DNA of 64,000 bases from Streptomyces sp. NBC_00536. GTDB taxonomy: Bacteria > Actinomycetota > Actinomycetes > Streptomycetales > Streptomycetaceae. The DNA lies in assembly GCF_036346295.1 (NCBI RefSeq), contig NZ_CP107819.1, forward strand, positions 4,650,001 through 4,714,000. Direction: 5' to 3'. A program made the translations under genes and the position numbers. This document shows, piece after piece, positions 2,613 through 55,212 of this stretch. Below the pieces are notes generated by a model, which was not told the origin of the DNA, did no database searches, and saw only the letters and a program-made list of their open reading frames with translations. Positions within the stretch are counted from its first letter, which is position 1, and each line of letters starts with the position of its first letter.

Positions 2613-2625
2613 TGACGGACCGTCA
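2613..2625. promoter_or_regulatory. TGACG palindrome, site 1 (orphan)
   Basis: TGACGGACCGTCA, a perfect 6-base inverted repeat around one base, matching the motif seen in front of the catabolic operons. Here it lies just beyond the stop of the ATP-binding protein and before the 3' end of the convergent cyclase gene, so it controls no obvious start codon. Confidence 0.5.
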
Positions 2626-2777
2626 TGTGTTGATCACTCTTGGGGGGAGCGATTCGACGCGAGGGGACGCCAAGGGCAGACCTTGACGAGTGCGGGTCGT
2701 GGGGTGGCGGCTGTGCCGTGCGGCGCTCGGGGCGTGCACGAACGTACGCCGCCACCCACAAAGAACGTCCAAAGGCC

Positions 2778-3704
2778 TCAGAGGATGGCGACCGGGGCCA
2801 CCGGTGTGCCCGTCCCGCCGACGAAGGGCTCCGGCATCGCCGAGAGCAGGAATGAATACTTCCGTTCTTGTCCACAGGCTGTGGACAACTTTTCGAGATT
2901 CCAGTTCTGTCCCTGGTGCATGCCCATCTCGACCAGGTCGAGCGCGTGCACCGGCAGCCACAGGTTCTCGATCTCCGGCGGGAAGATCTCGAAGGTCAGG
3001 GTGTCGTTGGCGACGGCCGCGACGTCCCGCGCGTGGAACCACTCGGGCGTACGGACGGACAGGCCCGGTGACGGGTAGCCGTAGCCGTGCTTGTCGCCCG
3101 CCAGATAGACCTGGATCTGCCCGGTGCGCACGAGCACGATGTCGCCGGGCCGGACCGTGACCCCGCCGAACTCCTCGGCCTCCACCAGGTCCTCCGGGGT
3201 CACCGCGTGCCCGCCGGGCAGCCGGTCCAGGCCCTTGGCGCGCGCCACGTCCAGCAGCACCCCGCGCGAGACGATGTGGCCGGCCTTGTCGATGCCGCTG
3301 AACTGGGCGCGGGAGTGCGCGGTGATGGTGTCCGCGGGGCGCCCGTTGTAGATCTTCCCCGAGTGCGAGACGTGGGTCAGGGCGTCCCAGTGGGTCGCCG
3401 ACTGCAGGCCCATGGTCACGGCGTCGTCGCTGCACGCGACGGTGCCCGGGCCGAAGATCTCCTGGTTGATCTGCACCATCGTGTGCAGCGGGTTGATCCG
3501 GCCCGGGATCATGCCGGCCTGGACGCCGTCCTCCTTCAGCGGGAGCGCGAGCGGGATCCGGCGGCCGGTGCGGATCTCGGCGGCGGCCGCCCGTACCACT
3601 TCGTCGGTGATCAGGTTCAGGGTACCGATCTCGTCGTCGGCTCCCCAACGTCCCCAGTTGTTCACGCGCTTGGCGATGTCGTGGAACTCGGCGGGCAGGC
3701 CCAT
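2778..3704 (-). CDS. Cyclase family protein (kynurenine formamidase-like metal hydrolase)
   Basis: 308-residue member of the cyclase/formamidase family (PF04199), metal-dependent hydrolases acting on ring-opened amide or lactone substrates. Family hallmarks include the N-terminal block NNWGRWGADDEIGTLNLIT and the metal-site segment SATHWDALTHVSHSG (about residues 101-115). I chose ATG 3704 because MGLPAEFHDIAKRVNNWGRW is the normal beginning and AAGGAG lies 11 bases upstream; GTG 3716 is possible but directly abuts that ribosome site. It is divergent from the SDR operon, with a TGACG operator between them, so probably part of the same catabolic regulon. The substrate is unknown. Confidence 0.85.
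   Translation of the reverse strand: MGLPAEFHDIAKRVNNWGRWGADDEIGTLNLITDEVVRAAAAEIRTGRRIPLALPLKEDGVQAGMIPGRINPLHTMVQINQEIFGPGTVACSDDAVTMGLQSATHWDALTHVSHSGKIYNGRPADTITAHSRAQFSGIDKAGHIVSRGVLLDVARAKGLDRLPGGHAVTPEDLVEAEEFGGVTVRPGDIVLVRTGQIQVYLAGDKHGYGYPSPGLSVRTPEWFHARDVAAVANDTLTFEIFPPEIENLWLPVHALDLVEMGMHQGQNWNLEKLSTACGQERKYSFLLSAMPEPFVGGTGTPVAPVAIL
2868..2888. other. Inverted pair of DnaA-box-like sequences
   Basis: TTGTCCACA, the Streptomyces DnaA-box consensus, followed by GGC and the inverse TGTGGACAA. It is perfectly symmetric and lies inside the 3' part of the cyclase gene. A second pair with the same spacer is at 34421-34441. Whether DnaA binds is not known. Confidence 0.5.
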
Positions 3705-3790
3705 GGGTCTCGTCACTCCTTCTGGACTGGGATGAACCGGACTGGGATGAACGGGGGCTTGTGCTGGCGCATCTGACTGCCCATAGAATC

Positions 3791-3803
3791 TAACGGTCCG
3801 TCA
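3791..3803. promoter_or_regulatory. TGACG palindrome, site 2
   Basis: TAACGGTCCGTCA, one mismatch from TGACGNNNCGTCA, in the divergent promoter region between the cyclase gene (start 3704) and the SDR operon (start 3827). It lies 23 bases before the SDR start codon, a position suited to repression. Confidence 0.6.
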
Positions 3804-3826
3804 GAAACAGCGGGAAGGGGCCGGGC

Positions 3827-4759
3827 ATGGGGAACTTCTTGGCAGGCAAGGTCGTCGCCGTCACGGGCGCGGGCCGGGGCATCGGGCGGGCCGTCGCACT
3901 CGCGGCGGCCGCCGAAGGCGCCAAGGTCGTCGTCAACGACTACGGCGTCGGCATCGAGGGCGGCGAACCCACCAGCGAGATCGCCGAAGGCGTGGTGAAG
4001 GAGATCCTCGCCGCGGGCGGAGAGGCCGTCGCCGTCGCCGACGACATCTCCACCATGGCGGGCGGCCAGCGCATCGTCGACACCGCGCTCGCCCGCTACG
4101 GCCGGATCGACGGCGTCGTCTGCGTCGCGGGCATCCTGCGCGAACGGATGCTCTTCAACATGTCCGAGGAGGAGTGGGACCCCGTCGTCGCCACCCACCT
4201 CAAGGGCACCTTCACCGTCTTCCGCGCCGCCTCCGCCGTCATGCGCAAACAGGGCACCGGCACGCTCATCGGCTTCACCAGCGGCAACCACCAGGGCTCC
4301 GTGGCCCAGGCCAACTACAGCGCCGCCAAGGGCGGGATCATCTCGCTCGTGCGCTCCGCCGCCCTCGGGCTGAGCCGGTACGGGGTCACCGCCAACGCCG
4401 TCGCCCCGGTCGCCCGGACCCGGATGTCGGCCAACGTCCCCATGGAGCTCAAGGAGATCGGCGAGCCGGAGGACGTGGCCGCACTGGTCACCTACCTGCT
4501 CAGCGACAAGGCGGTCGCGGTCGGCGGCGAGAAGATCACCGGGCAGGTGTACACGATCGCCGGACCCAAGATCGCCGTCTGGGCGCAGCCGCGCGAACTG
4601 CGCGCCGGATACGCCGAAGGGTCCTGGACCCCCGAGAAGATCGCCGACTTCCTCCCGGGGACGGTCGGCACCGACCCCATGCCGATGCTGGCGCAGCTGG
4701 AGGCCATGGCCAAGGCGGCGGCCGCCAAGGACCGGCCCAACGCCCGCCCGGGCGCCTAG
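3827..4759 (+). CDS. Short-chain dehydrogenase/reductase with C-terminal extension
   Basis: 310-residue SDR, an NAD(P)-dependent 3-hydroxyacyl-CoA or alcohol dehydrogenase by family. The Rossmann motif VTGAGRGIGRAVALAAAAEG is at about residues 11-30, and the catalytic YSAAK is near residue 164 with the preceding serine in GFTSGNHQG. It is longer than the usual 250 residues: after about residue 235 a tail (AGPKIAVWAQPRELRAGYAE) resembles the extension found in steroid and MFE-2-like dehydrogenases. It is first in a three-gene operon with an acyl-CoA dehydrogenase and a Zn alcohol dehydrogenase, preceded by a TGACG operator. Confidence 0.9.
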   Translation: MGNFLAGKVVAVTGAGRGIGRAVALAAAAEGAKVVVNDYGVGIEGGEPTSEIAEGVVKEILAAGGEAVAVADDISTMAGGQRIVDTALARYGRIDGVVCVAGILRERMLFNMSEEEWDPVVATHLKGTFTVFRAASAVMRKQGTGTLIGFTSGNHQGSVAQANYSAAKGGIISLVRSAALGLSRYGVTANAVAPVARTRMSANVPMELKEIGEPEDVAALVTYLLSDKAVAVGGEKITGQVYTIAGPKIAVWAQPRELRAGYAEGSWTPEKIADFLPGTVGTDPMPMLAQLEAMAKAAAAKDRPNARPGA

Positions 4760-4767
4760 GAGCTGCG

Positions 4768-5973
4768 GTGGACTTCGGCTTCGGGGCGGCGGAGGGGGAG
4801 CTGCGCGCCCGCGCGCGGCAATGGCTCGCCGGGCACCTCGTGGGACCGTACGCCCGGGCGGTCGGCCTCGGCGGACCCGGCAGCGAACACGAAGGGATGA
4901 CCGAACGGCGCGCCTGGGAAAGGGAACTGGGCCGCGGCGGCTGGATCGGCCAGGGCTGGGACGTACCGGACGGGGCGTACGGGCAGCAGCGGCTCTCGCT
5001 CACCGGGCAGGTGGTCTGGGCCGAGGAGTACGCGGCGCTGCGCGCGCCCGGCCGGGTCGGCCACATCGGCGAGAACCTCCTCGCGCCGACCCTCATCGCC
5101 TACGGGTCCCCGGAGCAGCGGGAGCGCTTCCTGCCGGGCATCGCCCGCGGCGAGGAACTGTGGTGCCAGGGATACAGCGAACCGGGCGCGGGCTCGGACC
5201 TCGCCGGGATCCGCACGGCGGCGGTCCGGGACCCGGCGGACGGCCGGCACCGCGTCACCGGCCAGAAGATCTGGACCTCGCTCGCCCGGGACGCCGACTG
5301 GTGCTTCGTGCTGGCCCGCACCGAGCCGGGCTCGCGGCGCCACCACGGGCTGTCCTTCCTCCTCGTGCCGATGGACCAGCCGGGCCGGATCGAGGTCCGG
5401 CCCATCCGGCAGATGTCGGGGACCGCCGAGTTCAACGAGGTCTTCTTCGACGGGGCGGTCGCGGTCGAGGTCGTCGGCGGAGAGGGCAACGGCTGGACGG
5501 TCGCCATGGGCCTGCTCGCCCTGGAACGCGGGGTCTCCACCCTGGTCCAGCAGATCGGCTTCGCCGCCGAACTGGAGCGCGTGACCGGCGCGTTCCTCAC
5601 CTCGGCGCAGGCCGGTGACCCCGTGCTGCGGGACCGCCTCGTCGGCCAGTGGGCCGAGCTGCGCACCATGCGGTGGCACGCGCTGCGCACCCTGGGGGCC
5701 GCCGCCCCCGACCCGGGCGCGCCCAGCGTGGCCAAGCTCCTGTGGGGCGGCTGGCACCGGCGGCTCGGCGAGCTGGCGGTGGCGGTGCGGGGCGCGGTGG
5801 CCAGCGCCGGGCCCGCGGACTGGGCGCGCGGGACTCCGTACGAGCTGGGCCTCGACGAGGCGCAGCGGCTGTTCCTGTTCACCCGCGCCGACACCATCTA
5901 CGGCGGTTCGGACGAGATCCAGCGGAACATCATCGCCGAGCGCGTGCTCGGCCTGCCTAAGGAGTCCAGGTGA
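4768..5973 (+). CDS. Acyl-CoA dehydrogenase
   Basis: 401-residue acyl-CoA dehydrogenase. The GTG start is preceded by AGGAG with a 5-base spacer, 8 bases after the SDR stop. Signature WCQGYSEPGAGSDL lies near residue 132 and SDEIQRNIIAERVLGLPK at the C-terminus. It is closely related in its signatures to the partial dehydrogenase at the left edge. It reduces bound FAD while oxidising an acyl-CoA to the 2-enoyl-CoA, and sits between an SDR and an alcohol dehydrogenase in one transcription unit, which suggests several consecutive oxidation steps on one substrate. Confidence 0.94.
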   Translation: MDFGFGAAEGELRARARQWLAGHLVGPYARAVGLGGPGSEHEGMTERRAWERELGRGGWIGQGWDVPDGAYGQQRLSLTGQVVWAEEYAALRAPGRVGHIGENLLAPTLIAYGSPEQRERFLPGIARGEELWCQGYSEPGAGSDLAGIRTAAVRDPADGRHRVTGQKIWTSLARDADWCFVLARTEPGSRRHHGLSFLLVPMDQPGRIEVRPIRQMSGTAEFNEVFFDGAVAVEVVGGEGNGWTVAMGLLALERGVSTLVQQIGFAAELERVTGAFLTSAQAGDPVLRDRLVGQWAELRTMRWHALRTLGAAAPDPGAPSVAKLLWGGWHRRLGELAVAVRGAVASAGPADWARGTPYELGLDEAQRLFLFTRADTIYGGSDEIQRNIIAERVLGLPKESR

Positions 5974-7037
5974 GAGGCGTCGTGTTCGACGGCAAGCAGG
6001 CCCAGGTGGTCGACGACCTGGAGATACGCGATCCCGGGCCGGGGGAGGTGCTCGTCGCGATCAAGGCGGCCGGGCTGTGCCACAGCGACCTGTCGGTGAT
6101 CGACGGGACGATCCCCTTCCCGCCGCCGGTGGTCCTCGGGCACGAGGGCGCGGGCGTCGTGGAGGCGGTCGGCTCCGGCGTCACCCACGTGGCGCCGGGC
6201 GACCACGTCTCGCTGTCCACCCTCGCGAACTGCGGGGCGTGCGCCGACTGCGACCGGGGCCGGCCGACGATGTGCCGCAAGGCGATCGGGATGCCGGGCC
6301 AGCCCTTCTCGCGCGGCGGTACGCCGCTCTACCAGTTCGCGTCCAACTCGGCCTTCGCGGAACGCACCCTCGTCAAGGCCGTCCAGGCGGTCAAGATCCC
6401 CCGGGACATCCCCTTCCCCTCGGCCGCCCTGATCGGCTGCGGGGTCCTGACGGGCGTCGGCGCCGTCCTGAACCGGGCCAAGGTGGACCGGGGCGAGACG
6501 GTGGTCGTCATCGGCACCGGCGGGATCGGCCTGAACGTCCTCCAGGGGGCCCGTATCGCGGGCGCGACCACGATCGTGGCGGTCGACGTGAACCCGGCGA
6601 AGGAAGCGGTGGCCCGGCAGTTCGGCGCCACGCACTTCATCGACGCCTCGGCGGTGGCGGACTCCTCGGCGGCGGTCCGCGAGATCCTCCCGACCGGCGC
6701 GGACCACGCCTTCGAGTGCGTCGGCAACGTGAAACTGATCCGCCAGGCGATCGACCTCCTCGACCGCCACGGCCAGGCCGTCCTGCTGGGCGTGCCCGGC
6801 TTCAAGGAGGAGGCCTCCTTCCAGGTCTCATCGATGTACCTCGACAAGACGGTCATGGGCTGCCGCTACGGCTCCTCCCGCCCCCAGCGCGACATCGCCC
6901 TCTACGCGGAGCTGTACCGCCAGGGCCGCCTCCTGCTGGACGAACTGGTCACCGAGACCTACCCGGTCGAAGACTTCGCCAAGGCAGCGGACGACGCCCA
7001 CCACGGGCGGGTGGCGCGGGGGGTGCTGACGTTCTGA
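5970..7037 (+). CDS. Zn-dependent alcohol dehydrogenase (MDR superfamily)
   Basis: 355-residue medium-chain dehydrogenase. The catalytic-zinc cysteine is in GLCHSDL (about residue 36), with the histidine in GHEGAGVVEAVG; the structural-zinc cysteines are in NCGACADCDRGRPTMC; the cofactor motif is VIGTGGIGLNVLQGA. This pattern matches class III-like, possibly mycothiol- or NAD-dependent, alcohol/aldehyde dehydrogenases. GTG overlaps the previous stop by 4 bases, so it is coupled to the acyl-CoA dehydrogenase. A strong hairpin follows at 7059-7095. Confidence 0.92.
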   Translation: MRGVVFDGKQAQVVDDLEIRDPGPGEVLVAIKAAGLCHSDLSVIDGTIPFPPPVVLGHEGAGVVEAVGSGVTHVAPGDHVSLSTLANCGACADCDRGRPTMCRKAIGMPGQPFSRGGTPLYQFASNSAFAERTLVKAVQAVKIPRDIPFPSAALIGCGVLTGVGAVLNRAKVDRGETVVVIGTGGIGLNVLQGARIAGATTIVAVDVNPAKEAVARQFGATHFIDASAVADSSAAVREILPTGADHAFECVGNVKLIRQAIDLLDRHGQAVLLGVPGFKEEASFQVSSMYLDKTVMGCRYGSSRPQRDIALYAELYRQGRLLLDELVTETYPVEDFAKAADDAHHGRVARGVLTF

Positions 7038-8136: not shown

Positions 8137-8580
8137 ATGATCAAGGCAACGCCGGTGATGCCCGCGCCGACCGCGGTACCGGTACCGATACCGCGCGGGG
8201 CGACCTTCGTACGGGTCGCGATCGCCCTGCAGACCCTGGCGATCTTCTTCCAGGCGGCCACCGCCGGACTGCTGCTGTCCTCGTCCCACGGCGAGCTGCT
8301 CCACGGCATCGGAGCGCGCGTGATGTACGGAGCGTCGATGCTCTACGTGATCGCCGCGATCCTGGCCTGGCGCCCGGGCGGCGGATCACCCCGCCCCATC
8401 CTGTACGCGTCGGGCTTCCTCGTGCTCGCCTCGGTGCAGGTGGTGCTCGGCATCGCGCACGTGGCGTGGCTCCATGTCCCGCTGGGCGTCCTGATGTTCG
8501 GCCTGAGCGTGCTGGCGCTGGGCCACGCGCTGCTCACCCGTTCGCTGCTCACCCGCTCGCCGGGCCGGGTCACTCGCTGA
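8137..8580 (+). CDS. Small integral membrane protein, unknown function
   Basis: 147 residues with four predicted membrane segments: about 25-45 (VRVAIALQTLAIFFQAATAG), 60-77, 89-110 and 115-135. A GAGAGGA ribosome site precedes the ATG. The N-terminus is rich in Pro and Val before the first helix. It diverges from the ECF sigma gene with only 93 bases between them, so sigma-dependent control is plausible but unproven. Its 3' end overlaps the convergent flavin reductase gene by 11 bases. I do not recognise a named family. Confidence 0.75.
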   Translation: MIKATPVMPAPTAVPVPIPRGATFVRVAIALQTLAIFFQAATAGLLLSSSHGELLHGIGARVMYGASMLYVIAAILAWRPGGGSPRPILYASGFLVLASVQVVLGIAHVAWLHVPLGVLMFGLSVLALGHALLTRSLLTRSPGRVTR

Positions 8581-9205
8581 GGCGGCCGAACTTCCCCTTG
8601 TGGAAGAGCAGCGGGCCGTCCTCGCCCGCTGCGCCCATCGCCTCGACGCGGCCGACGACGATCAGGTGGTCGCCACCGGTGTGCACGGCGTGGATGCGGC
8701 AGTCGATCCACGCCGGTACGTCGTCCAGCTGCGGCGAACCCGTGACGGGCGCGGGGCTGTGGACGACCCCCGCGAACTTGTCGGCGCCACTGACGGCGAA
8801 GGCCCGGCAGAGCAGGCCCTGTTCGGCGCCCAGGATGTTGACGCAGAACACCCCGGCGCGGGCGATCCGCGGCCAGGTGGTCGACGTACGGGCCACCATG
8901 AACGTCACCAGTGGCGGGTCGAGGGACAGCGAGGCGAAGGACTGGCAGGCGAACCCGGCCGGTGACCCCTCCCCGTCCGCCGCGGGGGCGGTGATGATGG
9001 TGACCCCGCTCGCGAAGTTGCCCATCACGGACCGGAATTCGGCCGGATCGATGGGCGCGCGCTCGTCTTCGCCGACGGCCCGCAGCTCGGGGCGCGGGTG
9101 CGCGTCGACGGCCGGGGAGGTATTGGAGTTGGCGTTGGCGGATTCCGGCTGCCCGGCGGACCTGAGGTATCGGACGACGGTGGCCGCCATCCCTGCGTGT
9201 CCCAT
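8570..9205 (-). CDS. Flavin reductase family protein (HsaB-like)
   Basis: 211-residue flavin:NAD(P)H reductase domain (about residues 45-205). Segments GNFASGVTIIT, GFACQSFASLSLDPPLV, CVNILGAEQ, DKFAGV and IDCRIHAVHTGGDHLIVVGRV closely follow HsaB, the reductase component of the 3-HSA hydroxylase of steroid degradation. Such proteins supply reduced flavin to a monooxygenase. ATG 9205 is listed; ATG 9190 is an alternative, and neither has a strong ribosome site. A TGACG operator lies 19 bases upstream. The oxygenase partner (HsaA type) is not present in the window. Confidence 0.88.
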   Translation of the reverse strand: MGHAGMAATVVRYLRSAGQPESANANSNTSPAVDAHPRPELRAVGEDERAPIDPAEFRSVMGNFASGVTIITAPAADGEGSPAGFACQSFASLSLDPPLVTFMVARTSTTWPRIARAGVFCVNILGAEQGLLCRAFAVSGADKFAGVVHSPAPVTGSPQLDDVPAWIDCRIHAVHTGGDHLIVVGRVEAMGAAGEDGPLLFHKGKFGRLSE

Positions 9206-9223: not shown

Positions 9224-9236
9224 TGACGGTATGTCA
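9224..9236. promoter_or_regulatory. TGACG palindrome, site 3
   Basis: TGACGGTATGTCA, one mismatch in the right half of TGACGNNNCGTCA, immediately upstream of the flavin reductase start codon. Confidence 0.6.
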
Positions 9237-22277: not shown

Positions 22278-23066
22278 CTAGACGCCCCGGTACTTCGGGG
22301 TGCGGCGTTCGACGAAGCTGGCCACGCCTTCGTTCGCGTCGGCCGTCGCCATGTTGATCTCCTGGGCCGTGGCCTCGGCGGCCAGGGCGGTGGCGCGGTC
22401 GGTGTCCAGGGAGGCGTTGACCAGCTGTTTGGTCAGGGCCAGGGCCCGGGTCGGGCCCTGGGCCAGGCGCTGGGCCCATTCGCGGGCGGTGGTTTCCAGG
22501 GCGTCGGCCGGGACGACGCGGTTGACCAGCCCCAGGCGCTCGGCGTCGGCGGCGGGCAGGGCGTCGCCGAAGAACATCAGCTCCTTCGCCTTCTGCGGGC
22601 CGATCAGGCGGGGGAGCAGGTACGCGCCGCCGCCGTCCGGGACCAGACCGCGGCGGACGAAGACCTCGATGAAGCGGGCCGAGTCCGCGGCCAGCACCAG
22701 GTCGCAGGCGAAGGCCAGGTGGGCGCCGATCCCGGCCGCCGTGCCGTTGACGGCGGCGATGACGGGCTTCTCGCAGTCCATGACGGACGTGATGAACCGC
22801 TGCGCGCCCGTGCGGATCATGCGGGCCACGTCACCCGCGACCCGTTCACCGGCCGGGGCGGGGGAGCCGCGCAGGTCGGCGCCCGCGCAGAAGCCCTTGC
22901 CCGTGGCGGTGATGACGACGGCGCGGACGGCCGGGTCGGCGGAGGCTTCGGCGAGCAGGGTCATGATGTGCTCGCGCTGGTCCCAGGTGAGGGCGTTCAT
23001 GGCCTCGGGGCGGTTCAGCGTGATCCACGAGACGGCGTTCTCGGTGTGGTGCAGGACCTCGTCCAT
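22278..23066 (-). CDS. Enoyl-CoA hydratase/isomerase family protein
   Basis: 262-residue crotonase-fold protein hydrating or isomerising a 2-enoyl-CoA. Oxyanion-hole segments are GKGFCAGADLRG (about residues 55-67) and AAVNGTAAGIGAHLAFACDL (about 103-122); the active-site acid region is ARFIEVFVRRGLVPDGGG. It lies 34 bases downstream of the acyl-CoA synthetase gene on the same strand, so the two are probably one operon under the paired TGACG operators at 25398-25434. Confidence 0.93.
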   Translation of the reverse strand: MDEVLHHTENAVSWITLNRPEAMNALTWDQREHIMTLLAEASADPAVRAVVITATGKGFCAGADLRGSPAPAGERVAGDVARMIRTGAQRFITSVMDCEKPVIAAVNGTAAGIGAHLAFACDLVLAADSARFIEVFVRRGLVPDGGGAYLLPRLIGPQKAKELMFFGDALPAADAERLGLVNRVVPADALETTAREWAQRLAQGPTRALALTKQLVNASLDTDRATALAAEATAQEINMATADANEGVASFVERRTPKYRGV

Positions 23067-23100
23067 ACGGTTCGTTGCTCCAAGGCGTCGGCTGGAGGGT

Positions 23101-25347
23101 TCAGCGGCAGATGGCCAGGGCGTCCAGGGCCACCGCGCCCTGGCCGCGGGGGAGGACCATGAGGGGGTTGATGTCGAGTTCGGCGAGTTCGCCGCCGAGT
23201 TCCAGGGCCATCCGCTGGACCCGCAGGATGACCTCCACGAGTGCCTCGACGTCGGCGGGCGGGGCTCCCCGTACGCCCTCCAGCAGGGCGTGGCCGCGGA
23301 GTTCGCCCAGCATGGCGCGGGCCTGGTCCTCGCCGAAGGGCGGGACGCGGACGGCGGTGTCGTTGAGGATCTCGACGAGGACCCCGCCCAGTCCGACGGT
23401 GACGGTGGGCCCGAAGAGGTCGTCCTGGGTGACGCCGACGACCATCTCGACGCCCTTCTCCACCATCTGGCAGACGAGGACGCCGTCCAGCGGGATGTTC
23501 TCGAAGCGGGCGATGTCGGTCAGCTCGCGGTAGGCGTCGCGTATCTGGCTGGCCGAGGTCAACCCGACCTTCACCAGGCCGAGTTCGGTCTTGTGGGCGA
23601 GTTGCGGGCCGGAGGCCTTCATCACCACGGGGTAGCCGACCAGCCCGGCCGCGCGGACGGCGGCCGCGGCGCTGGTGACCAGCTGTTCGCGCGGGACCCG
23701 GATGCCGTAGGCGCGCAGCAGCTGCTTCGCGGCGTGCTCGCTGAGCTGCTGGCCGGGCCGCATGAGGGCCTGGGCCTTGCGGTACGAGGGGGACGGCGTC
23801 CGGGGGGCGTCGTCGAAGGGGGAACGGTAGGAGGCGGTGAAGCGGTGGTGGCCGAGGTAGGCCCGTACGGCGGTGATGCAGTTGCCGAAGGTGCGGAAGG
23901 TCGCGACGCGGGAGGAGCCGAGGAGGGTGGTGCGGTAGGCCTCCTCGGTGCCGACGGGGGAGCCCCAGATGACGCAGATGAGCTTGTCGCTCTCCTCGGC
24001 GGCGTCGGCCAAGTCCTGGGCGAGCTTGTCGCTCATCGGCGGGAAGGGGCCGGTGATGGGGCAGATGAGGACGCCGACGGCGGGGTCGGCGAGGATCGCG
24101 TCGATGATCTTCCGGCCGCGCCAGTCGCCGACGGGGTGGCCGCCGTTGTCGACGGGGTTGGCGACGTTCAGGTACGCGGGGATCCACTGGTGGAGTTCGT
24201 CCTGCTTCGCCCGGGTGAGGGTGGGCAGGCTGAGGCCCGCCTCGGTGGCCAGGTCGGAGAAGTGGGCGCCCGTACCGCCGGAGATGGAGTAGACGACGAC
24301 CCCGTCGGCGAGCGGCTTGCGGGCGCGGGCCAACAGGGCGGCGGTGTCTTGGAGTTCGTCGAGGCCGTCGACCCGGATCACGCCGAACTGGCGCATGGCC
24401 GCGTCCACGACCCGGTCCGCGCCGGTGAGCTTGCCGGTGTGCGAGGCGGCCATGCGGGCGCCGGTCTCGGTGCGCCCGACCTTGACGGCGACGACGGGTA
24501 CGCCGTTGCGGGCGGCCCGGTCGGCGGCGAGCAGGAAGGAGCGGCCGTCCTTGAGCCCCTCGACGTAGCAGGCGATCGCCCCGACCTCGGGCCGCTCGGC
24601 GAAGTAGGAGATGAAGTCGGAGGTCTCCAGGTCGGCCTCGTTGCCCGTCGGGGCCCAGTGGGAGAGGCGGATGCCCAGCTCCTGGAGGGTGTAGACGGGC
24701 CGCCCCTGGTGGCCGGACTGGGTGATCAGCGCGATCGCCGGGCCGTCGAGGTCCTCGCGGAAGGCCTCGAAGGCGTTGAGGTTGGTGTTCGGGCCGAGCA
24801 GGCGCAGTCCGGAGCGCCGCACGGCGGCGCCGAGCCGGGCCTGGGCGGCCGCGCCCGCGTCGCCGGTCTCGGCGAAGCCGGAGGCGAAGGCGACCGCGAA
24901 CTTGACCTTGGATTCGGCGAGTTCCTCGATGACCGGGAGCGGGTCGGCGACCAGCAGGACGGCCAGGTCCACCTGTTCGGGCAGCTCGGCGACGGAGGCG
25001 TGGCAGGCCAGGCCGAAGACGCTGGTGCGGGTGGGGTGTACGGGGTGGAGGCGGGCGCCGACGCGGTCCGCCCAGGCGATGAGCTGGCGGGTGATGCCGG
25101 TGTTGGGGCGGCCCTCGGCGTCGGAGGCGCCGATGACGGCGACGGACTCGGGGCGGAAGAACCGGTCCAGGTCCGGGACGTCGGCGTGCAGCGGCCGGCC
25201 GCTGACGTCGACGGGGGCGGCGGCCGGGTCGGCGCCTTCCGCGGCGGGGGCCGCCGTGGAGTGGACCGCGGTTCGGGGGGTCTCCCCGCAGGCCTCGACC
25301 CGGGCGCGGAAGTGAGTGGTGAGGGTGCCGTGAGTAGATCCAAGCAT
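23101..25347 (-). CDS. NDP-forming acyl-CoA synthetase (acetate-CoA ligase family)
   Basis: 748 residues combining a CoA-binding Rossmann domain (about 65-165, VAVIGASDAEGRPNTGITRQ), two succinyl-CoA-synthetase-like domains with a probable phospho-His in ASHTGKLTGADRVVD, and an ATP-grasp domain (about 500-745, LLRAYGIRVPREQLV, VMKASGPQLAHKTELG). It makes an acyl-CoA from acid, CoA and a nucleoside triphosphate. ATG 25347 was preferred (GGCGGAACG just upstream); a TTG at 25392 would start almost in the operator. It is first in an operon with an enoyl-CoA hydratase. Confidence 0.9.
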   Translation of the reverse strand: MLGSTHGTLTTHFRARVEACGETPRTAVHSTAAPAAEGADPAAAPVDVSGRPLHADVPDLDRFFRPESVAVIGASDAEGRPNTGITRQLIAWADRVGARLHPVHPTRTSVFGLACHASVAELPEQVDLAVLLVADPLPVIEELAESKVKFAVAFASGFAETGDAGAAAQARLGAAVRRSGLRLLGPNTNLNAFEAFREDLDGPAIALITQSGHQGRPVYTLQELGIRLSHWAPTGNEADLETSDFISYFAERPEVGAIACYVEGLKDGRSFLLAADRAARNGVPVVAVKVGRTETGARMAASHTGKLTGADRVVDAAMRQFGVIRVDGLDELQDTAALLARARKPLADGVVVYSISGGTGAHFSDLATEAGLSLPTLTRAKQDELHQWIPAYLNVANPVDNGGHPVGDWRGRKIIDAILADPAVGVLICPITGPFPPMSDKLAQDLADAAEESDKLICVIWGSPVGTEEAYRTTLLGSSRVATFRTFGNCITAVRAYLGHHRFTASYRSPFDDAPRTPSPSYRKAQALMRPGQQLSEHAAKQLLRAYGIRVPREQLVTSAAAAVRAAGLVGYPVVMKASGPQLAHKTELGLVKVGLTSASQIRDAYRELTDIARFENIPLDGVLVCQMVEKGVEMVVGVTQDDLFGPTVTVGLGGVLVEILNDTAVRVPPFGEDQARAMLGELRGHALLEGVRGAPPADVEALVEVILRVQRMALELGGELAELDINPLMVLPRGQGAVALDALAICR

Positions 25348-25397: not shown

Positions 25398-25410
25398 TGA
25401 CGCATGGTCA
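25398..25410. promoter_or_regulatory. TGACG palindrome, site 4
   Basis: TGACGCATGGTCA, one mismatch in the right half, upstream of the acyl-CoA synthetase operon. It is centred 24 bases from site 5, so two dimers could bind on nearly the same DNA face. Confidence 0.6.
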
Positions 25411-33580: not shown

Positions 33581-34228
33581 TTACCGGGTGGGCTTCTTGC
33601 CGGTGATGCCGAGGTGGACGAGCAGGGCCAGGTTCGGCTTCAGCTCGGCCTGCTTCACGCCCCAGGTCTGGAACCCCTTCTGGTGCGAGGCCACCGCGGC
33701 GAGCATCGCGACCAGGGAGCCGGCCATCGCGGCAGGGCTGACGTCCTTGTCGACCTTGCCCTTCGCCTGGAGCTCCTTCACCGATTCGGTGAGGGAGTTG
33801 GTGACCGAGTTCAGGATCTTCATGCGGATCTTGTAGAAGCGCTTGTCGCCCTCGGCCGCGCCGAGGTCGACGACCCGCAGGATCGCGTCGTTGCGCCGCC
33901 AGAAGTCCAGGAAGCCCTCGACGAGTTCCTCCGCGGCGGCCCAGCCGGCCTTGCCGACCCAGGCCCGGCCCTCGACGAGCGCGGTCAACTGCGCGCCCTC
34001 GTTGGCCATTTCCTCGGCGATCTCCAGGACGGCACCTTCGACGTCCGGGAAGTACTGGTAGAAGGTCGCGGGGGAGGTACCGGCCTTGCGGGCGACGTCG
34101 ATCACCTTGACGTCGCGGTACGGCGAGGAGCTGAGCATCTCGCTGAGGCAGTCGAGCAGCTTCTGCCGCGTCGCCTGGCCGCGCCGACCGGCCACGCGGC
34201 CGTCGACGGTGCGTACTTGTCCTGTCAT
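33581..34228 (-). CDS. TetR family regulator, candidate regulator of the catabolic genes
   Basis: 215 residues. The helix-turn-helix is at about residues 20-68 (GQATRQKLLDCLSEML, IDVARKAGTSPATFYQYFPD); the ligand domain follows (LVEGFLDFWRRNDAILRVVD). It stands alone, divergent from the VOC gene that precedes afsK. It is the only TetR in the window without its own clear inverted repeat, and it lies amid operons carrying TGACG palindromes, so it is a candidate for their repressor (inference). In S. coelicolor I recall a TetR gene (SCO4421) at the corresponding place next to kbpA-afsK. Confidence 0.88.
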   Translation of the reverse strand: MTGQVRTVDGRVAGRRGQATRQKLLDCLSEMLSSSPYRDVKVIDVARKAGTSPATFYQYFPDVEGAVLEIAEEMANEGAQLTALVEGRAWVGKAGWAAAEELVEGFLDFWRRNDAILRVVDLGAAEGDKRFYKIRMKILNSVTNSLTESVKELQAKGKVDKDVSPAAMAGSLVAMLAAVASHQKGFQTWGVKQAELKPNLALLVHLGITGKKPTR

Positions 34229-34551
34229 GCCGTCAGCTTACCGAGGGGTGATCGGCGCGCGATTCGGCCGCCTGCAAATGGGGTCACGGGGTACCTGGCC
34301 TGCGCGTACTCCACCCAGGGGGCGGAATCCGGCCGCGCCCGCGCGGCGACCGCGACCACGCCCTCCGCAGCGCCCCGCTCCTGCTCCCGCGCCCGCCCCC
34401 GAGCCGTCCCCCGAATAGTCTTATCAACAGGCTGTGGACAAGTTGGCGGGGGGATCATGGGGCGGGGGGCAGACTGGCCCATGTAGTGCGACACCGCGCC
34501 ACACCACGCCACACCGTATGGCACCGCATGAAAACGGAAGGAAGAGGGCCC
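34229..34551. other. 323-bp intergenic region with no gene
   Basis: Divergent promoter region between the TetR and VOC genes. The notable feature is an inverted DnaA-box-like pair (34421-34441). A repeated ACACCACGCC/ACACCGCGCC stretch at about 34488-34515 precedes the VOC gene. I see no small gene. Confidence 0.6.
34421..34441. other. Inverted pair of DnaA-box-like sequences
   Basis: TTATCAACA, then GGC, then TGTGGACAA (inverse of the consensus TTGTCCACA). The left half is imperfect. Same GGC spacer as the pair at 2868. Confidence 0.5.
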
Positions 34552-42330: not shown

Positions 42331-42377
42331 AGGCCTGGTAGCGTGACGCGCCGTCGTCCTGGGGAGGGAAACGCGCC

Positions 42378-42875: not shown

Positions 42876-43652
42876 CTAACGCACGCGGAAGTCCGTACCC
42901 GGCCGCCGCGACCCGAACAGCTCCGCCTGCCGCTCCGGCGGCAGGTTGCCGAGCGCGATCAGGTGCGGTGCCTGGGCCAGGGCCTGGGCCCTGGCCCCCT
43001 CCTTCGCCGCCCACAGCGCCCGTACCGTCCCCTGCACGGCCTCCGTCGGGAACCCGGCCAGGGTCCGCGCGGCCCGCAGCGCCGCCGCGAGCAGGTCCGC
43101 CGGTTCCGCCAGCTCGGAGACCAGGCCGATCTCGTACGCCCGGCGCGCGGAGAGCCGTTCGGCCGTGCCCATCAGGGACATCCGGGCGACCTCCCCGAAC
43201 GGCATCCGCTGCGCCATGTAGATCGCCTCGTAGGCGCTGACCATGCCGTAGCTGGTGTGCGGGTCGAAGTACGTCGCGGTGGTGGAGGAGATGATGAACT
43301 CCGCCTCGCCCAGCAGGTAGAAGGCGCCCCCGCAGGCCATGCCGTTGACCGCCGCGACCACCGGTTTCCACAGGTCGTTGGCCTTGGGGCCGATCGAGAT
43401 CATCGGGTCGTCGATCGCGTACGGGGACGCGGGCTGCGGCACCTCCACCGAGCGGTCGATGCCCGTACAGAAGGCCGCGGACCCGGCGCCGGTCACCACC
43501 ACCGCGCGCACGCCCTCGTCGAAGCGGAACTCCCGCCACAGCGCGGAGAGTCCGGCCGCCGTCGCCAGGTCGACCGCGTTGTGCCGCTCCGGCCGGTCCA
43601 GGGTGACGACCGCGACCCCGGTCTCCGCGTCCCGCTCGACCCGTACGCTCAT
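42876..43652 (-). CDS. Enoyl-CoA hydratase/isomerase family protein
   Basis: 258-residue crotonase-fold protein. Oxyanion-hole segments are GAGSAAFCTGIDRSVEVP (about residues 54-71) and AAVNGMACGGAFYLLGEAEF (about 98-117). It is last in a three-gene operon with a thiolase-like enzyme and a DUF35 protein; its ATG overlaps the upstream stop by 4 bases. The operon starts behind a TGACG operator at 45355. Confidence 0.92.
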   Translation of the reverse strand: MSVRVERDAETGVAVVTLDRPERHNAVDLATAAGLSALWREFRFDEGVRAVVVTGAGSAAFCTGIDRSVEVPQPASPYAIDDPMISIGPKANDLWKPVVAAVNGMACGGAFYLLGEAEFIISSTTATYFDPHTSYGMVSAYEAIYMAQRMPFGEVARMSLMGTAERLSARRAYEIGLVSELAEPADLLAAALRAARTLAGFPTEAVQGTVRALWAAKEGARAQALAQAPHLIALGNLPPERQAELFGSRRPGTDFRVR

Positions 43653-44143
43653 GACTTCTCCAGGAGCCAGCGCGGCACGCTCACCCCGTCCTGCTCCGTG
43701 AACGCCACGTGCACCTTCGCCCCGATCCGCAGCCGCGCCGGGTCCAGCGAGTCCAGCGGCGCGTCGGGGGCCGTGACCAGGTTCCCGGCGAGCCGGATGT
43801 GCGGGGCGTCGGCCAGCTCGACGAGGATCACGTTGTACGGGGCCTGCGCGGCGTAGGCGGGCAGCAGCGGCGGATGCGGCCGGACGTACGACCACACGCG
43901 CCCCTTGCCACTCATCAGCCGCCATTCGCTCGCGAAGGACCGGCAGTGCGGGCAGCACGGGCGGGGCGGGAAGCGGAGCTTGCCGCAGCCGGGCGCGGCG
44001 CAGGCCTGGATGCGCAGCTCGCCCCGGGCGGCGTACTCCCAGAAGGGGGCGCCGTCCTCGTCGGGGACGGGCAGGAGCAGGGCCTCGGGGGCAGGGTCCG
44101 GGGTCGGGGCGGGGGACGCGTCCGCGGGAGTGGTGGTGGTCAT
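43649..44143 (-). CDS. DUF35 protein: zinc ribbon plus OB-fold
   Basis: 164 residues. The zinc ribbon (CAAPGCGKLRFPPRPCCPHC, about residues 49-68) has an extra two residues in the first Cys pair; the OB-fold follows (KGRVWSYVRPHPPLLPAY, VELADAPHIRLAGNLV). A DUF35 protein immediately downstream of a thiolase-like gene is the arrangement of steroid retro-aldolases (Ltp2/ChsH2), in which it supplies the acyl-CoA site. The gap to the thiolase gene is only 7 bases. Confidence 0.9.
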   Translation of the reverse strand: MTTTTPADASPAPTPDPAPEALLLPVPDEDGAPFWEYAARGELRIQACAAPGCGKLRFPPRPCCPHCRSFASEWRLMSGKGRVWSYVRPHPPLLPAYAAQAPYNVILVELADAPHIRLAGNLVTAPDAPLDSLDPARLRIGAKVHVAFTEQDGVSVPRWLLEKS

Positions 44144-44150
44144 GGGGCGG

Positions 44151-45302
44151 TCAGCTCCTCAGCAGGATCGCGGACGTCGGGACTCCCTCGCCCGCCGTCA
44201 CCAGGCAGGTCGCGGCGTCCGGCACCTGGGCGGTGGAGATCCCGCGCAGCTGCTTGACGCCCTCGTTGATCAGGTTGAAGCCGTGGACGTAGGCCTCGCT
44301 GAGGCCGCCGCCGCCGGTGTTGATGGGCAGCCGCCCGCCGATCTCCAGCGCCCCGCCCTCCGTGAAGGCGGCGCCCTCGCCGCGACCGCAGAAGCCGTAG
44401 CCCTCCAGGGAGAGCGGGATGAGGGGGGTGAACGCGTCGTAGATCTGGGCCACGTCCACGTCATGGGGGCCGAAGTCGGCCTGTTTCCACAGGTGCCGGG
44501 CGGCGGTCCAGGCGGGGCCGGTCAGCGGGTCGTCGTTCCAGTAGTTGACCATGCCGTGGTGCTGGGCGGGCAGGCCCTGGGCCACGGAGTGGACGTAGAC
44601 GGGCTTCTGGCGGCAGTCCCGGGCCCGCTCGGCGGAGACGATGACACAGGCCAGCGCGCCGTCCGTCTCCAGGCAGTTGTCGAAGAGGCAGAGCGGCTCG
44701 CTGATCATCCGCGCGGTCATGTAGCTCTCGCGGGTCATCGGGCGGTCGTACATGATCGCGGCCGGGTTCTGGTTGGCGCGGTTGCGGCAGGCCAGGGCCA
44801 CATTGAAGAGGTGGTCGCGGGTGGCGCCGTACTCGTGCATGTAGCGGCGGGCGAGCATGCCGATCTCGTCGGCCGGGCGCAGCAGCCCGAAGGGCCGGGT
44901 CCACTGGCCGGGGGTGGGCAGCTGGACGGCCGTGTTCTTCCAGGGGCGGGGGCCGGAGCCGCGCTTGCGCGAGCGCCAGGCGACGCCGACGCTCGCCTGG
45001 CCGGTGGCGACGGCGGCGGCGAGGTGGCCGACGGTGGCGCAGGAACCGCCGCCGCCGTAGCCGATCTTGGAGAAGAAGGTCACGTCGCCCGCGCCGATAG
45101 CCTTGGCGACCTCGACCTCGTCGGTCTCCTCCATCGTGTAGGAGGAGAAGGCGTCGACCTCGGAGGGGGCTATCCCCGCGTCGGCGAGTGCCGCCAGAAT
45201 GGCCCGGCAGGCCAACTCCTTTTCGGACTGCGGCAGTTGTTTGGCAAAGGCGGTCTGCCCGATGCCGACTATCGCTGTCGCGTCCTTGAGCGTTGCCGCC
45301 AT
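44151..45302 (-). CDS. Thiolase-like (SCP2/Ltp2-type) enzyme
   Basis: 383 residues. Segments GYGGGGSCATVGHLAAAVAT (about residues 84-103), CLETDGALACVIVS, VDVAQIYDAFTPLIPLSLEG and NTGGGGLSEAYVHG (His in last block) mark the lipid-transfer thiolase family. The position of the nucleophilic Cys is GGGGSC. ATG 45302 has GGAGG 5 bases upstream; GTG 45308 is too close to it. Together with the DUF35 protein it likely cleaves a beta-hydroxyacyl-CoA (retro-aldol) or beta-ketoacyl-CoA. A TGACG operator is in the divergent promoter region shared with the FadD3-like ligase gene. Confidence 0.9.
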   Translation of the reverse strand: MAATLKDATAIVGIGQTAFAKQLPQSEKELACRAILAALADAGIAPSEVDAFSSYTMEETDEVEVAKAIGAGDVTFFSKIGYGGGGSCATVGHLAAAVATGQASVGVAWRSRKRGSGPRPWKNTAVQLPTPGQWTRPFGLLRPADEIGMLARRYMHEYGATRDHLFNVALACRNRANQNPAAIMYDRPMTRESYMTARMISEPLCLFDNCLETDGALACVIVSAERARDCRQKPVYVHSVAQGLPAQHHGMVNYWNDDPLTGPAWTAARHLWKQADFGPHDVDVAQIYDAFTPLIPLSLEGYGFCGRGEGAAFTEGGALEIGGRLPINTGGGGLSEAYVHGFNLINEGVKQLRGISTAQVPDAATCLVTAGEGVPTSAILLRS

Positions 45303-45354: not shown

Positions 45355-45367
45355 TGACGAACAGTCA
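45355..45367. promoter_or_regulatory. TGACG palindrome, site 9
   Basis: TGACGAACAGTCA, one mismatch in the right half, between the divergent thiolase operon and the FadD3-like ligase gene. Confidence 0.55.
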
Positions 45368-45405: not shown

Positions 45406-47094
45406 ATGGGCGAGCGAGAAGCGGAAGAGCACCTGCGTGACGACGAGCGAGCGGGCGCCGACGAGGACGGGCGCGGCGACCAGGCCGAGGACCTGCGCGG
45501 CGACCTGCGCTGGGGCACCATCGCCGGGCTGGTCCGCGACGCCGCCACCCGGTTCGGCGGGCACGAAGCCGTCGTCGACGGCCGCGTCCGGATCAGCTAC
45601 GCCCAGCTCGGCGAGCGCGTCGAGCGCGCCGCGGCCGCCTGCATCGCCGCCGGTCTGGAGCCCGGCGACCGGGTCGCGGTCTGGGCCCCCAACACCCTGG
45701 AGTGGATCGTCTCCGCGCTCGGCGCGGTCTCGGCGGGCGCGGTGCTCGTCCCGCTGAACACCCGTTTCAAGGGCGCGGAAGCGGCGTACATACTGGAGCG
45801 CAGCCGCGCCCGGATGCTCTTCGTCACCGGCACCTTCCTGGGCACGTCCTACGTCGCCTCGCTGCGCCGCGCCGCCGCCGACGGCCCGGGCGGGGGCCCG
45901 CTGCCCGGGCTGCCGCACCTGGAGCACGTCGTCGTCCTCGCCGACGACGCCCCCGAGTCCTTCCGCACCTGGAAGGACTTCCTGGCGGGCGGGGACGCCG
46001 TCACCGGCGCCGCCGTCCGGGCCCGCGCCGACTCCGTACGCCCCGACGCCCCCTCCGACATCATCTTCACCTCCGGCACCACCGGCAGCCCCAAGGGCGC
46101 GGTCATCACGCACGCCCAGACCCTGCGCTGCTACCAGGTGTGGAGCGAACTGGCCGGGCTGCGCGAGGGCGACCGCTATCTGATCGTCAACCCGTTCTTC
46201 CACACCTTCGGCTACAAGGCGGGCATCATCGCCTGCCTGATGCGCGGGGCGACGATGGTGCCGCAGCCCGTCTTCAACGTGGACACCGTCCTCGCGAACA
46301 TCGCCGCCGAACGGATCTCCGTCCTGCCCGGCCCGCCCACCCTGCACCAGTCGATCCTCGACCACCCGGCCCGCGACCACCACGACCTCTCCGCGCTGCG
46401 CCTGGTCGTGACCGGCGCCGCGGTCGTCCCGCTGCGGCTCGTGGAGCGGCTGCGCGGCGAACTGCGGATCGGGACGGTCCTGACGGCGTACGGGCTCTCC
46501 GAGGCCGGCGGCATCGTCACCATGTGCCGCCGCGGCGACCGGGCCGAGATCATCGCGGCCACCTCGGGGCGGGCCATCCCCGGGACCGAGGTGATGATCG
46601 CGGACGCGGAGGGCCGCGCGCGGGCGACGGGGGAGGCGGGCGAGGTGTGGGTCCGCGGGCACCACGTCATGCGCGGGTACTTCGAGGACCCGGCGGAGAC
46701 CGCGCGGGCCATCACCCCCGAGGGCTGGCTGCGCACCGGTGACGTCGGCGTGACGGACGCGGAGGGCAACCTGCGGATCACCGACCGGATCAAGGACATG
46801 TTCATCGTCGGCGGCTTCAACGCCTACCCCGCCGAGATAGAGCAACTCCTCGGCCTGCACCCGGACATCGCGGACGTCGCGGTGATCGGCGTACCGGACC
46901 CGCGGCTCGGCGAGGTCGGCCGCGCGTACGCGGTGCGCCGCCCCGGCTCGACGCTGACCGCCGACGACCTGATCGCCTGGTCGCGCCGGGAGATGGCGAA
47001 CTACAAGGTGCCGAGGTCGGTGGAGTTCGTGGCGGACCTGCCGCGCAACGCGAGCGGCAAGGTGCTCAAGACCGAACTCCGGGCGCGGGGGTAG
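45406..47094 (+). CDS. AMP-forming acyl-CoA ligase, FadD3-like
   Basis: 562-residue ANL-superfamily ligase. P-loop-like motif FTSGTTGSPKGAVITHAQTL (about residues 222-241), AYGLSEAGG, the GWLRTGDVG hinge region, and Lys in NASGKVLKTELR near the C-terminus. Many positions (INPFFH..GYKAGI-type, LPGPPTLHQSILDHPARDHHDL, NLRITDRIKDMFIVGGFNAY) read like M. tuberculosis FadD3, which activates the steroid C/D-ring propanoate HIP. About 35 N-terminal residues are a charged extension absent from FadD3. GAGGGG precedes the ATG. Confidence 0.9.
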   Translation: MGEREAEEHLRDDERAGADEDGRGDQAEDLRGDLRWGTIAGLVRDAATRFGGHEAVVDGRVRISYAQLGERVERAAAACIAAGLEPGDRVAVWAPNTLEWIVSALGAVSAGAVLVPLNTRFKGAEAAYILERSRARMLFVTGTFLGTSYVASLRRAAADGPGGGPLPGLPHLEHVVVLADDAPESFRTWKDFLAGGDAVTGAAVRARADSVRPDAPSDIIFTSGTTGSPKGAVITHAQTLRCYQVWSELAGLREGDRYLIVNPFFHTFGYKAGIIACLMRGATMVPQPVFNVDTVLANIAAERISVLPGPPTLHQSILDHPARDHHDLSALRLVVTGAAVVPLRLVERLRGELRIGTVLTAYGLSEAGGIVTMCRRGDRAEIIAATSGRAIPGTEVMIADAEGRARATGEAGEVWVRGHHVMRGYFEDPAETARAITPEGWLRTGDVGVTDAEGNLRITDRIKDMFIVGGFNAYPAEIEQLLGLHPDIADVAVIGVPDPRLGEVGRAYAVRRPGSTLTADDLIAWSRREMANYKVPRSVEFVADLPRNASGKVLKTELRARG

Positions 47095-54800: not shown

Positions 54801-55067
54801 GATGGGCGGGGCCGTGGTGGGCCCGGCCGTGGCGGGCGCCGGTTCCGATTGCGGTTCCGGTCGCGCTTCCGGTGCCGCTTCCGGTGCGGGTTCCGCTTGT
54901 GCTCGCACTTGTGGTCGCGCTTGCGTCCGTGGCTGTGCCGGTGTCTGCGTCCGTGGCTCCGGTTCGGGCGGGGCAGGGGGCGGGACGGCGGATCGGGCTG
55001 CCGCGGCGCCGGGCCGGGCCGCCTCGGGGTGGTTCCGCTGGTTGGGGATGGCCGGTATGCCGTCCAT
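51849..55067 (-). CDS. afsR: AfsR, SARP-type transcription factor with NB-ARC and TPR domains
   Basis: 1072 residues. Winged-helix DNA-binding domain about 97-180 (RFAVLGPIRAWRGSEALSSG, RTYASRLRKVLDT), bacterial activation domain about 185-335 (LRERLRELLMLALYRSGRQA), NB-ARC ATPase with P-loop LAGIGGVGKTTLAVHV at about 393-408 and VLVLLDNARDAAQ, then TPR-like repeats to the end. AfsR is phosphorylated by AfsK and activates afsS. The first ~95 residues, Pro/Gln/Ala/Glu-rich with RTQARPQVRAQAEPAPEA-like repeats, extend well beyond S. coelicolor AfsR (993 residues). Good ribosome site (GGGGGGA) before the ATG. It diverges from the amidohydrolase gene. Confidence 0.95.
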   Translation of the reverse strand: MDGIPAIPNQRNHPEAARPGAAAARSAVPPPAPPEPEPRTQTPAQPRTQARPQVRAQAEPAPEAAPEARPEPQSEPAPATAGPTTAPPITTPPPGDSRFAVLGPIRAWRGSEALSSGSPQQRALLAALLLRDGRTATAPELIDAIWGEDPPPQALAAIRTYASRLRKVLDTGLLVSESGGYAIRLGSAAALDLGVARSLGADADKARAAGDRSLARTLLARALDLWDGEPLAGVPGPYAETERVRLGEWRLQLLESRLDLDLEIGHHAEAVSELTALTAAHPLRERLRELLMLALYRSGRQAEALAVYADTRRLLADELGVDPRPELAALQQRILRADAELARAADPAPAAEPVQVRPAQLPATVPDFTGRATFVTELGRVLAGADGQVMAVSALAGIGGVGKTTLAVHVAHAARPHFPDGQLYIDLQGTEARPVEPEAVLGAFLRALGTPDTRIPDSPAERAALYRSTLDGRRVLVLLDNARDAAQVRPLLPGTAGCAALVTSRVRMAGLAGAHLVDLDVMSPDEALLLFTRIVGAERVGAERQAALDVVGACGFLPLAIRIAASRLAARRTWTVSVLAAKLADERRRLDELQAGDLAVKATFELGYGQLEPAQQRAFRLLGLADGPDISLCAAAAVLDRPEHDTEDLLEALVDCSLLESAAPGRYRFHDLVRLYARACAERDERPASERTAALDRLLDFYLATAARVYALERPGDRLVAHLSPTRYPGRDFTEPRAALDWLYAEADTVLACVRQAAARSALPAPGTKLGGDSSGVLRRAVDLLWAAKDLAESGANSKQYESTAGAVRDAARAAGDPRAEGRARTTLTTVHLIAGRFTAADDEARQAHALAKAAGDPVPSSWAPNDRGIIALHQGRYADGERFLLEAIENFRADGNLVGEASALCNLSRIHVEVGRLPSAIELAQQGIAIYDRMGLSLRLANGRYALGIALTQAGRLQEAQEQLTEALSLFHENRQPLWEGVTHFRLAEAHLAARRPTLAASHAEQAIALRGIGGEWRRATVLTVLGKALRSLGQTDRARVCWRDAESVFEQLGSSELAEVRALLASAIAA

Positions 55068-55199
55068 CAGTCGTCCCCCCTGCCTTCCGTCGGTGTGGTG
55101 GCCAGTCTGCCCTGTCTTGCGGTGAGACGTCAGTCCGCGGTGGACCGATCGCCGTCCAACTGGCCGCCGTACTGCTGTACCACTAGCTGTCGTACTAGC

Positions 55200-55212
55200 T
55201 GACGCATCGTCA
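55200..55212. promoter_or_regulatory. TGACG palindrome, site 10
   Basis: TGACGCATCGTCA, perfect match to TGACGNNNCGTCA, 22 bases before the amidohydrolase ATG and 132 bases upstream of the divergent afsR start. Confidence 0.65.

Follow-up and report, generated by a model that had tools for sequence, protein, structure and literature searches.

The Streptomyces sp. NBC_00536 genome carries, among the genes around kbpA, afsK, and afsR, a short palindrome that recurs in front of genes of acyl-CoA-type catabolism, which raises the question of what protein reads it. The DNA analyzed here, referred to as the window, is a stretch of 64,000 nucleotides (contig NZ_CP107819.1, positions 4,650,001 to 4,714,000), and window positions are counted from its first letter. 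A first-pass annotation had described ten 13-base palindromes with TGACG and CGTCA halves, proposed that they mark one catabolic regulon, and named the TetR gene at 33581 to 34228 as the best candidate for its regulator. Our comparisons lead us to regard TGACGNNNCGTCA, in extended form about ATCTGACGNNNCGTCAGAT, as highly likely to be the operator of this TetR protein, which would act as the repressor of a scattered catabolic regulon. More broadly, sequence comparison makes it very probable that one poorly understood control protein, common to Streptomyces and several of its relatives, docks at this operator.

The proposed operator and the genes behind it

All ten palindromes of the first-pass annotation were recovered where it had placed them, six of them exact and four with one mismatch, and for 9 of the 10 the closest start codon, called or listed, is 13 to 74 bases away, as had been claimed (the site at 2613 has no called start behind it). 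A search of the window that allowed up to one mismatch found 11 places (6 exact and 5 with one mismatch); 100 dinucleotide shuffles gave 3.22 on average and never more than 7. The eleventh place, a one-mismatch match at 42344 to 42356, is intergenic, lacks the extended flanks, reaches −0.9 bits with the extended matrix described below, and is probably a chance match. A 156-kb region around the window contains 9 copies of TGACG-N3-CGTCA. When the half-site was permuted in all 60 ways (TGACG itself included), the mean count was 0.42 and the next highest was 4, and the other spacings from N0 to N8 occur 0 or 1 time each in the same DNA.

In the whole genome (9.15 Mb) there are 37 exact matches to TGACGNNNCGTCA and 3 to the reversed control pattern. 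Thirty-three of the 37 lie outside called genes, although noncoding DNA makes up 14.2% of what was fetched (binomial P, ∼4e-24); the gene calls come from a purpose-written simple gene finder that did not use the motif and whose start codons are uncertain. By our own reading of called neighbors together with family matches, only 18 of the 37, about half, front CoA-, redox-, or uptake-type genes (hereafter catabolic-type genes). A genome search for CTGACGNNNCGTCAG with two mismatches was useless, returning 758 places versus 687 for the control.

The extended operator was derived from a matrix of 18 sites of this genome and 16 from genome G014, and it frequently overlaps a −10-like box. The matrix is partly circular, since 17 of the 18 own sites were chosen for fronting catabolic-type genes and the G014 loci were located with a pattern that already included the GAT flank. 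On this matrix the ten sites of the first-pass annotation, six of them training sites, score 21.6 to 32.7 bits. In 455 kb of the organism's own DNA, fetched mostly for containing sites, 28 places score at least 20 bits (18 of them training sites); none of the 28 falls inside a gene, and for 27 a called start is found within 350 bases. Among the 10 nontraining places, 7 front catabolic-type genes, and for the other 3 this is not evident. The seven are the four one-mismatch window sites, the sites at genome positions 4648263 and 4648341, in front of paired ligase and amidohydrolase genes a short way outside the left end of the window, and one site before a luciferase-like gene.

The description of the genes behind the nine window sites as catabolic holds broadly; the DoxX label given to the gene at 26975 to 27427 is not supported, as this gene has no family match in Pfam (at 1e-5) or NCBIfam (at 1e-20). 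Targets beyond the window identified by Pfam include an acyl-CoA dehydrogenase, an AMP-ligase, three luciferase-like proteins, a ferredoxin reductase-like protein, a periplasmic binding protein, and a GMC oxidoreductase; they are joined by an Rv3169-family protein and two short-chain dehydrogenases/reductases (SDRs), the latter read from sequence. The GMC oxidoreductase gene has two sites at its start (C1 2295309 and 2295391; 17.5 and 16.5 bits). The name cholesterol oxidase for its product (locus L009) was considered and set aside as weak (79.7 bits against a cut-off of 850).

One case of conservation is the promoter of the acyl-CoA dehydrogenase gene at 31705, a neighbor of the TetR gene. 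We found 33 matches to this protein in 61 relatives and fetched 30 of the loci, counting as orthologues those of at least 50% identity. An upstream site of at least 14 bits is present in 28 of 28 orthologues and in neither of two paralogues (38% and 42% identity). Most of these sites read TAATATGACGNNNCGTCAGAT or TAACAT..., so the operator begins within the −10-like box, in keeping with the way in which a repressor works. Genomes of the genus without this dehydrogenase have a median of 23.5 sites (n = 8) versus 44 in those with it (n = 28; P = 0.0008), where G028, whose sole match is a paralogue, was counted among the latter. The proposal of one regulon is strengthened, in that the set reaches beyond the window and is conserved. 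An origin by chance or base composition is exceedingly improbable: the motif is short and can be formed by in-frame CTG-ACG-NNN-CGT-CAG codons, of which the f15 genomes described below give examples, but the genome-wide count against its control, the intergenic placement, and the conservation at dehydrogenase orthologues contradict it.

The TetR protein as candidate regulator

The protein encoded at 33581 to 34228 matches PF00440 (TetR_N) at 26.8 bits, above the cut-off of 24, and PF19352 at 244 bits, and its gene adjoins kbpA/afsK. Of the 12 positions of its recognition segment, AGTSPATFYQYF, 10 do not vary in an alignment of 17 relatives whose identity goes down to 41%. Among the 61 relatives, all 51 members of families f1 and f3 carry the gene, with 10 to 153 sites each, and the 10 others lack it; of these, the f2 genome has 4 sites and the remaining nine have 0 to 6. 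In family f16, all seven genomes with the gene have 11 to 27 sites, and of the five without it four have 1 or 2 and G200 has 16 (Mann-Whitney P, ∼0.03, with G200 and one of the four low genomes, G210, each 68% complete). The count of exact sites is several times higher than usual in two single genomes of the same genus, G014 (153) and G319 (99). In genome G081, which has 1 site, the TetR orthologue (C74:75373-75993; L186) contains one in-frame TGA.

The leader of the gene itself offers a second line of evidence. In families f1 and f3, the sequence TAARCTGACGnnATGACA precedes and overlaps the start in 42 of 42 loci (one with GACA for GACG), and it is found in 71 of 80 in a set of named loci; its geometry of −10-like box, half-site, and ATG overlap is that of the dehydrogenase promoter. 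Self-sites are also present at distant orthologues: 14.7 to 24.7 bits in 7 of 7 Frankiales-like loci of f16, whose proteins are of ∼50% identity, 17.3 bits in one f14 locus, 12.8 to 21.5 bits in Frankia-type loci (21.5 in Parafrankia), and 17.3 bits in Actinomadura. The start codons of these TetR genes are uncertain, and some self-sites may therefore overlap first codons. In Actinomadura xylanilytica (L264), tetR, an acyl-CoA synthetase gene, and an amidohydrolase gene stand in a row with five sites; the synthetase is 65% identical over 699 aa to that of window positions 23101 to 25347, the amidohydrolase is 61% identical over 394 aa to that of 55226 to 56452, and neither enzyme matches any other called gene of the window. 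Distribution, conserved leader, distant self-sites, and the Actinomadura cluster together argue for the candidate of the first-pass annotation as the putative regulator.

Several observations weigh against this assignment. Nineteen of the 37 exact sites lack an evident catabolic gene, lack a called start, or lie inside genes, so that membership of every exact match in the regulon is not required. The codistribution in f1 and f3 is weak when taken alone, because any gene common to two related families would behave alike; the sites of one f3 genome (G050) barely exceed the control (11 versus 10), and in family f20 the enrichment is slight, with 6 to 15 sites in genomes that have the TetR (at least 48% identity) versus 2 to 10 in the rest. 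The Streptomyces leader site is weak (8.9 to 10 bits, mostly ∼10); 10 of 341 genes in the organism's own DNA reach at least 8.9 bits as near to the start, and since the leader overlaps the −10 box and the ATG, its conservation may have other causes. No self-site was found at the f24 orthologue or at the f6 orthologue, which has a stop inside, and two loci examined in genus g39, with relatives of 35 to 39% identity, score 8 to 9 bits each. Finally, the tests covered the TetR of 33581 alone among the regulators of the genome and are not a full competition.

One alternative is that another regulator outside the window, of the TetR, GntR, or a similar family, reads the operator and that the TetR gene at 33581 is one of its targets. 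The weak Streptomyces self-site would fit such an arrangement, the genome has 106 TetR_N matches at an E value of ≤0.01, and exact sites occur no more than 200 bases from a TetR gene at 7807937 and from a gene on C4 that, judged by eye, resembles a GntR gene. We consider it unlikely, given that the self-sites of the 33581 TetR extend across several orders and that its recognition segment is nearly invariant; the site at 7807703, beside the other TetR gene, has no extended flanks and does not appear in the list of places scoring over 10.5 bits.

The developmental regulator BldD, which is widespread in actinomycetes, presents another alternative, under which the sites would be BldD boxes of its developmental regulon and the TetR would have no part in reading them. 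Every TGACGNNNCGTCA site matches the 13-bp box form TNAC-N5-GTNA as it is given in PMC4151990, a point against our assignment that the first-pass annotation had left out of account. The developmental regulation of SCO4421, the S. coelicolor counterpart of the TetR by position, and its lower level in a whiA mutant (PMC3878966) would likewise be in keeping with this alternative. The sites nevertheless add fixed bases (G2, G5, C9, and C12) and flanks (CT..AG and AT) beyond the box, the window targets are catabolic rather than developmental, the sites in f16 track the presence of the TetR gene, and tetR genes of distant orders have sites at their starts, all of which make BldD a quite improbable reader of the set.

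If the TetR of 33581 is the repressor, as we favor, a dimer would bind the operator through the recognition segment, and wherever the operator overlaps a −10-like box, as in TAATA-TGACG of the dehydrogenase promoter and TAAGC-TGACG of tetR, RNA polymerase would be kept off. The substrate acid or its CoA thioester would then release the protein and open a regulon of ligases, acyl-CoA dehydrogenases, thiolases, SDRs, flavin-dependent and luciferase-like oxidoreductases, amidohydrolases, and a periplasmic binding protein.

Genomes of family f15 were dropped from this argument. Five of them (G063, G085, G103, G119, and G135) have the TetR gene and 221 to 391 exact TGACGNNNCGTCA matches per 4.3 to 5.5 Mb, against 0 to 4 for the control. 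Among the places examined in G063 and G085 (L189 to L218 and L299 to L315), 26 of 51 lie inside genes, 23 of these 26 in one codon phase (CTG ACG NNN CGT CAG). The 24 places left outside genes after the gene model had been altered slightly comprise 13 convergent, 7 tandem, 3 divergent, and 1 edge position, and in 11 of the 13 convergent ones one or both stop codons fall inside the palindrome. Site conservation between the two genomes (3 of 7 aligned) is about the 43% seen for random windows. With half of the places in genes, convergent placement, and conservation at a random level, these matches do not form a promoter regulon, and we rejected them as evidence of co-occurrence. The f15 TetR loci keep half of the self-site, and their proteins keep the recognition segment and have a shortened and altered C-terminal domain.

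Known regulators, steroid ring genes, and the possible function of the proposed regulon

The steroid repressors KstR and KstR2 are the nearest known systems in kind. KstR of mycobacteria (Rv3574) is a TetR repressor with a self-site over the −10 region, scattered operons of lipid and steroid type, and sites often between divergent genes (PMC1995591), features that the system proposed here would share, but the KstR operator is TnnAACnnGTTnnA, unlike the consensus here. KstR2, which governs HIP breakdown (rings C/D), resembles the present system in the EchA20-IpdABC and SDR-type targets seen in Frankiales and Yinghuangia and in the FadD3-family ligase of the window; its operator, AnCAAGnnCTTGnT as named in the first-pass annotation (the string occurs in PMC3068626), differs, so that the claim of a half-site unlike both motifs stands.

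In the f16, f14, and Yinghuangia genomes, the TetR gene follows an SDR gene, and the space between this SDR and divergent genes of the EchA20-IpdA-IpdB-IpdC type holds a near-exact site (14.5 to 27.7 bits in seven f16 loci, one f14 locus, and Yinghuangia). These gene names are our assumption from similarity, and the IpdA and IpdB types have no NCBIfam match at 1e-20. A table in PMC7807495 places the EchA20-IpdABC genes in steroid C/D-ring breakdown.

NBC_00536 has its own ring genes elsewhere, at 2.137 to 2.142 Mb of C1, with 66, 61, 58, and 64% identity to the Frankiales-type proteins, and this locus has no TGACG site. Within the locus (L053:2991-13336; C1 2.137 to 2.147 Mb), a CAAACGTTTG palindrome stands between SDR and EchA20, and a TetR gene lies ∼5 kb away. 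We take the nearby thiolase and TetR to be FadA6-like and KstR2-like, respectively; the TetR has no NCBIfam match at 1e-20. The palindrome is possibly a variant of the KstR2 operator. IpdA is present in 28 of 36 relatives of the genus.

It is accordingly very unlikely that the window sites belong to KstR or KstR2 with a drifted operator. Such a reading would draw on the FadD3-family ligase, which is over its cut-off, on the IpdE2-like dehydrogenase (204.6 bits against 450) and HsaB-like reductase behind other sites, both under theirs, and on the near-exact sites before ring genes in Frankiales and Yinghuangia; against it stand the separate ring locus with its own TetR gene, its CAAACGTTTG palindrome, and no TGACG site, and the fact that none of the PDB matches of the 33581 TetR is named KstR or KstR2.

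The ring-C/D operon was rejected as a target in this genome, as no site is present there, and the term steroid-like that had been applied to the window genes is apt only in part, since the ring genes are located elsewhere and have no site. By the criteria of PMC4810484, 55 of 57 Streptomyces genomes lack the steroid pathway; given this survey and the ring genes without a site, we do not claim that the Streptomyces regulon serves steroid breakdown. The safest guess for the substrate is a cyclic or branched acid handled as a CoA thioester.

By its position beside the KbpA and AfsK genes, the window TetR resembles SCO4421, of which we presume SAV3818 to be the orthologue. SCO4421 is a TetR close to afsK in S. 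coelicolor that is active in spores and whose deletion mutant, K319, had no detected phenotype (PMC3878966), and PMC3742746 describes SAV3818 as regulating avermectin production positively. The available portions of these two papers report no DNA target or catabolic regulon. We did not find the TGACGNNNCGTCA operator reported in open-licence literature, though a text search can miss palindromes that are printed differently. An orphan Streptomyces regulator that is expressed in spores and stands beside afsK would thereby gain a precise candidate operator and a predicted target list, which indicate the conditions under which a phenotype of SCO4421-type mutants should be sought, and the result predicts an undescribed catabolic regulon in the sampled Streptomyces-type genomes.

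The findings also suggest a regulator swap over the steroid-ring genes. We tentatively raise the possibility that the operator-regulator pair predates the divergence of Streptomycetales, Frankiales, and Actinomadura and that the operator was kept while the pathway changed, with ring C/D genes in Frankiales and Yinghuangia and an uncharacterized pathway of acyl-CoA, amidohydrolase, and luciferase-like genes in Streptomyces, where another regulator, probably KstR2-like, would have taken the ring genes. Because the gene is whiA dependent and spore expressed in S. coelicolor, such a pair may link the use of sterol-like or storage lipids to sporulation and the onset of antibiotic production.

Features of the window

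Coordinates of proposed operator sites and associated genes in the 64,000-nucleotide window
Feature	Position	Strand	Remark
Exact site	2613..2625	+	No called start behind
One-mismatch site, divergent promoter cyclase/SDR operon	3791..3803	+	
One-mismatch site before flavin reductase (8570-9190)	9224..9236	+	
One-mismatch site before NDP-forming acyl-CoA synthetase	25398..25410	+	
Exact site before NDP-forming acyl-CoA synthetase	25422..25434	+	
Exact site, divergent promoter FAD monooxygenase-like gene/26975-27427 gene	26929..26941	+	
Exact site, thiolase/acyl-CoA dehydrogenase divergent promoter	31598..31610	+	
Exact site over TAATAT −10-like box, acyl-CoA dehydrogenase promoter	31671..31683	+	Kept in orthologues
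Imperfect putative operator TAAGC-TGACG-GC-ATGACA, TetR leader	34223..34235	−	Behind −10-like TAAGCT, over ATG
One-mismatch site, divergent promoter thiolase-DUF35-enoyl-CoA hydratase/FadD3-family ligase	45355..45367	+	
Exact site before amidohydrolase	55200..55212	+	
Putative cyclase	2778..3704	−	PF04199
Operon SDR-acyl-CoA dehydrogenase-zinc alcohol dehydrogenase	3827..7037	+	
Flavin reductase, HsaB-like	8570..9190	−	Below HsaB cut-off (189.9 of 230 bits)
NDP-forming acyl-CoA synthetase and enoyl-CoA hydratase	22278..25347	−	
FAD-dependent monooxygenase-like protein	25496..26728	−	
Thiolase, acetyl-CoA acetyltransferase subfamily	30382..31581	−	
Acyl-CoA dehydrogenase and F420H2-dependent quinone reductase (Ddn-like)	31705..33443	+	Convergent with tetR
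TetR regulator, proposed repressor	33581..34228	−	SCO4421-type by position; PF00440 and PF19352 (TetR_C_38)
Operon thiolase-ChsH2-type DUF35-enoyl-CoA hydratase	42876..45302	−	
FadD3-family acyl-CoA ligase	45406..47094	+	796.7 bits, cut-off 657
Amidohydrolase	55226..56452	+	PF04909

The neighborhood is that of afsK/afsR, with NCBIfam matches to AfsK (1497.5 bits, cut-off 1300), AfsR (1690.7, cut-off 1430), and KbpA (295.3, cut-off 250). The kbpA, afsK, and afsR genes (window positions 34552 to 38127 and 51849 to 54767) are interleaved with the site-bearing catabolic operons.

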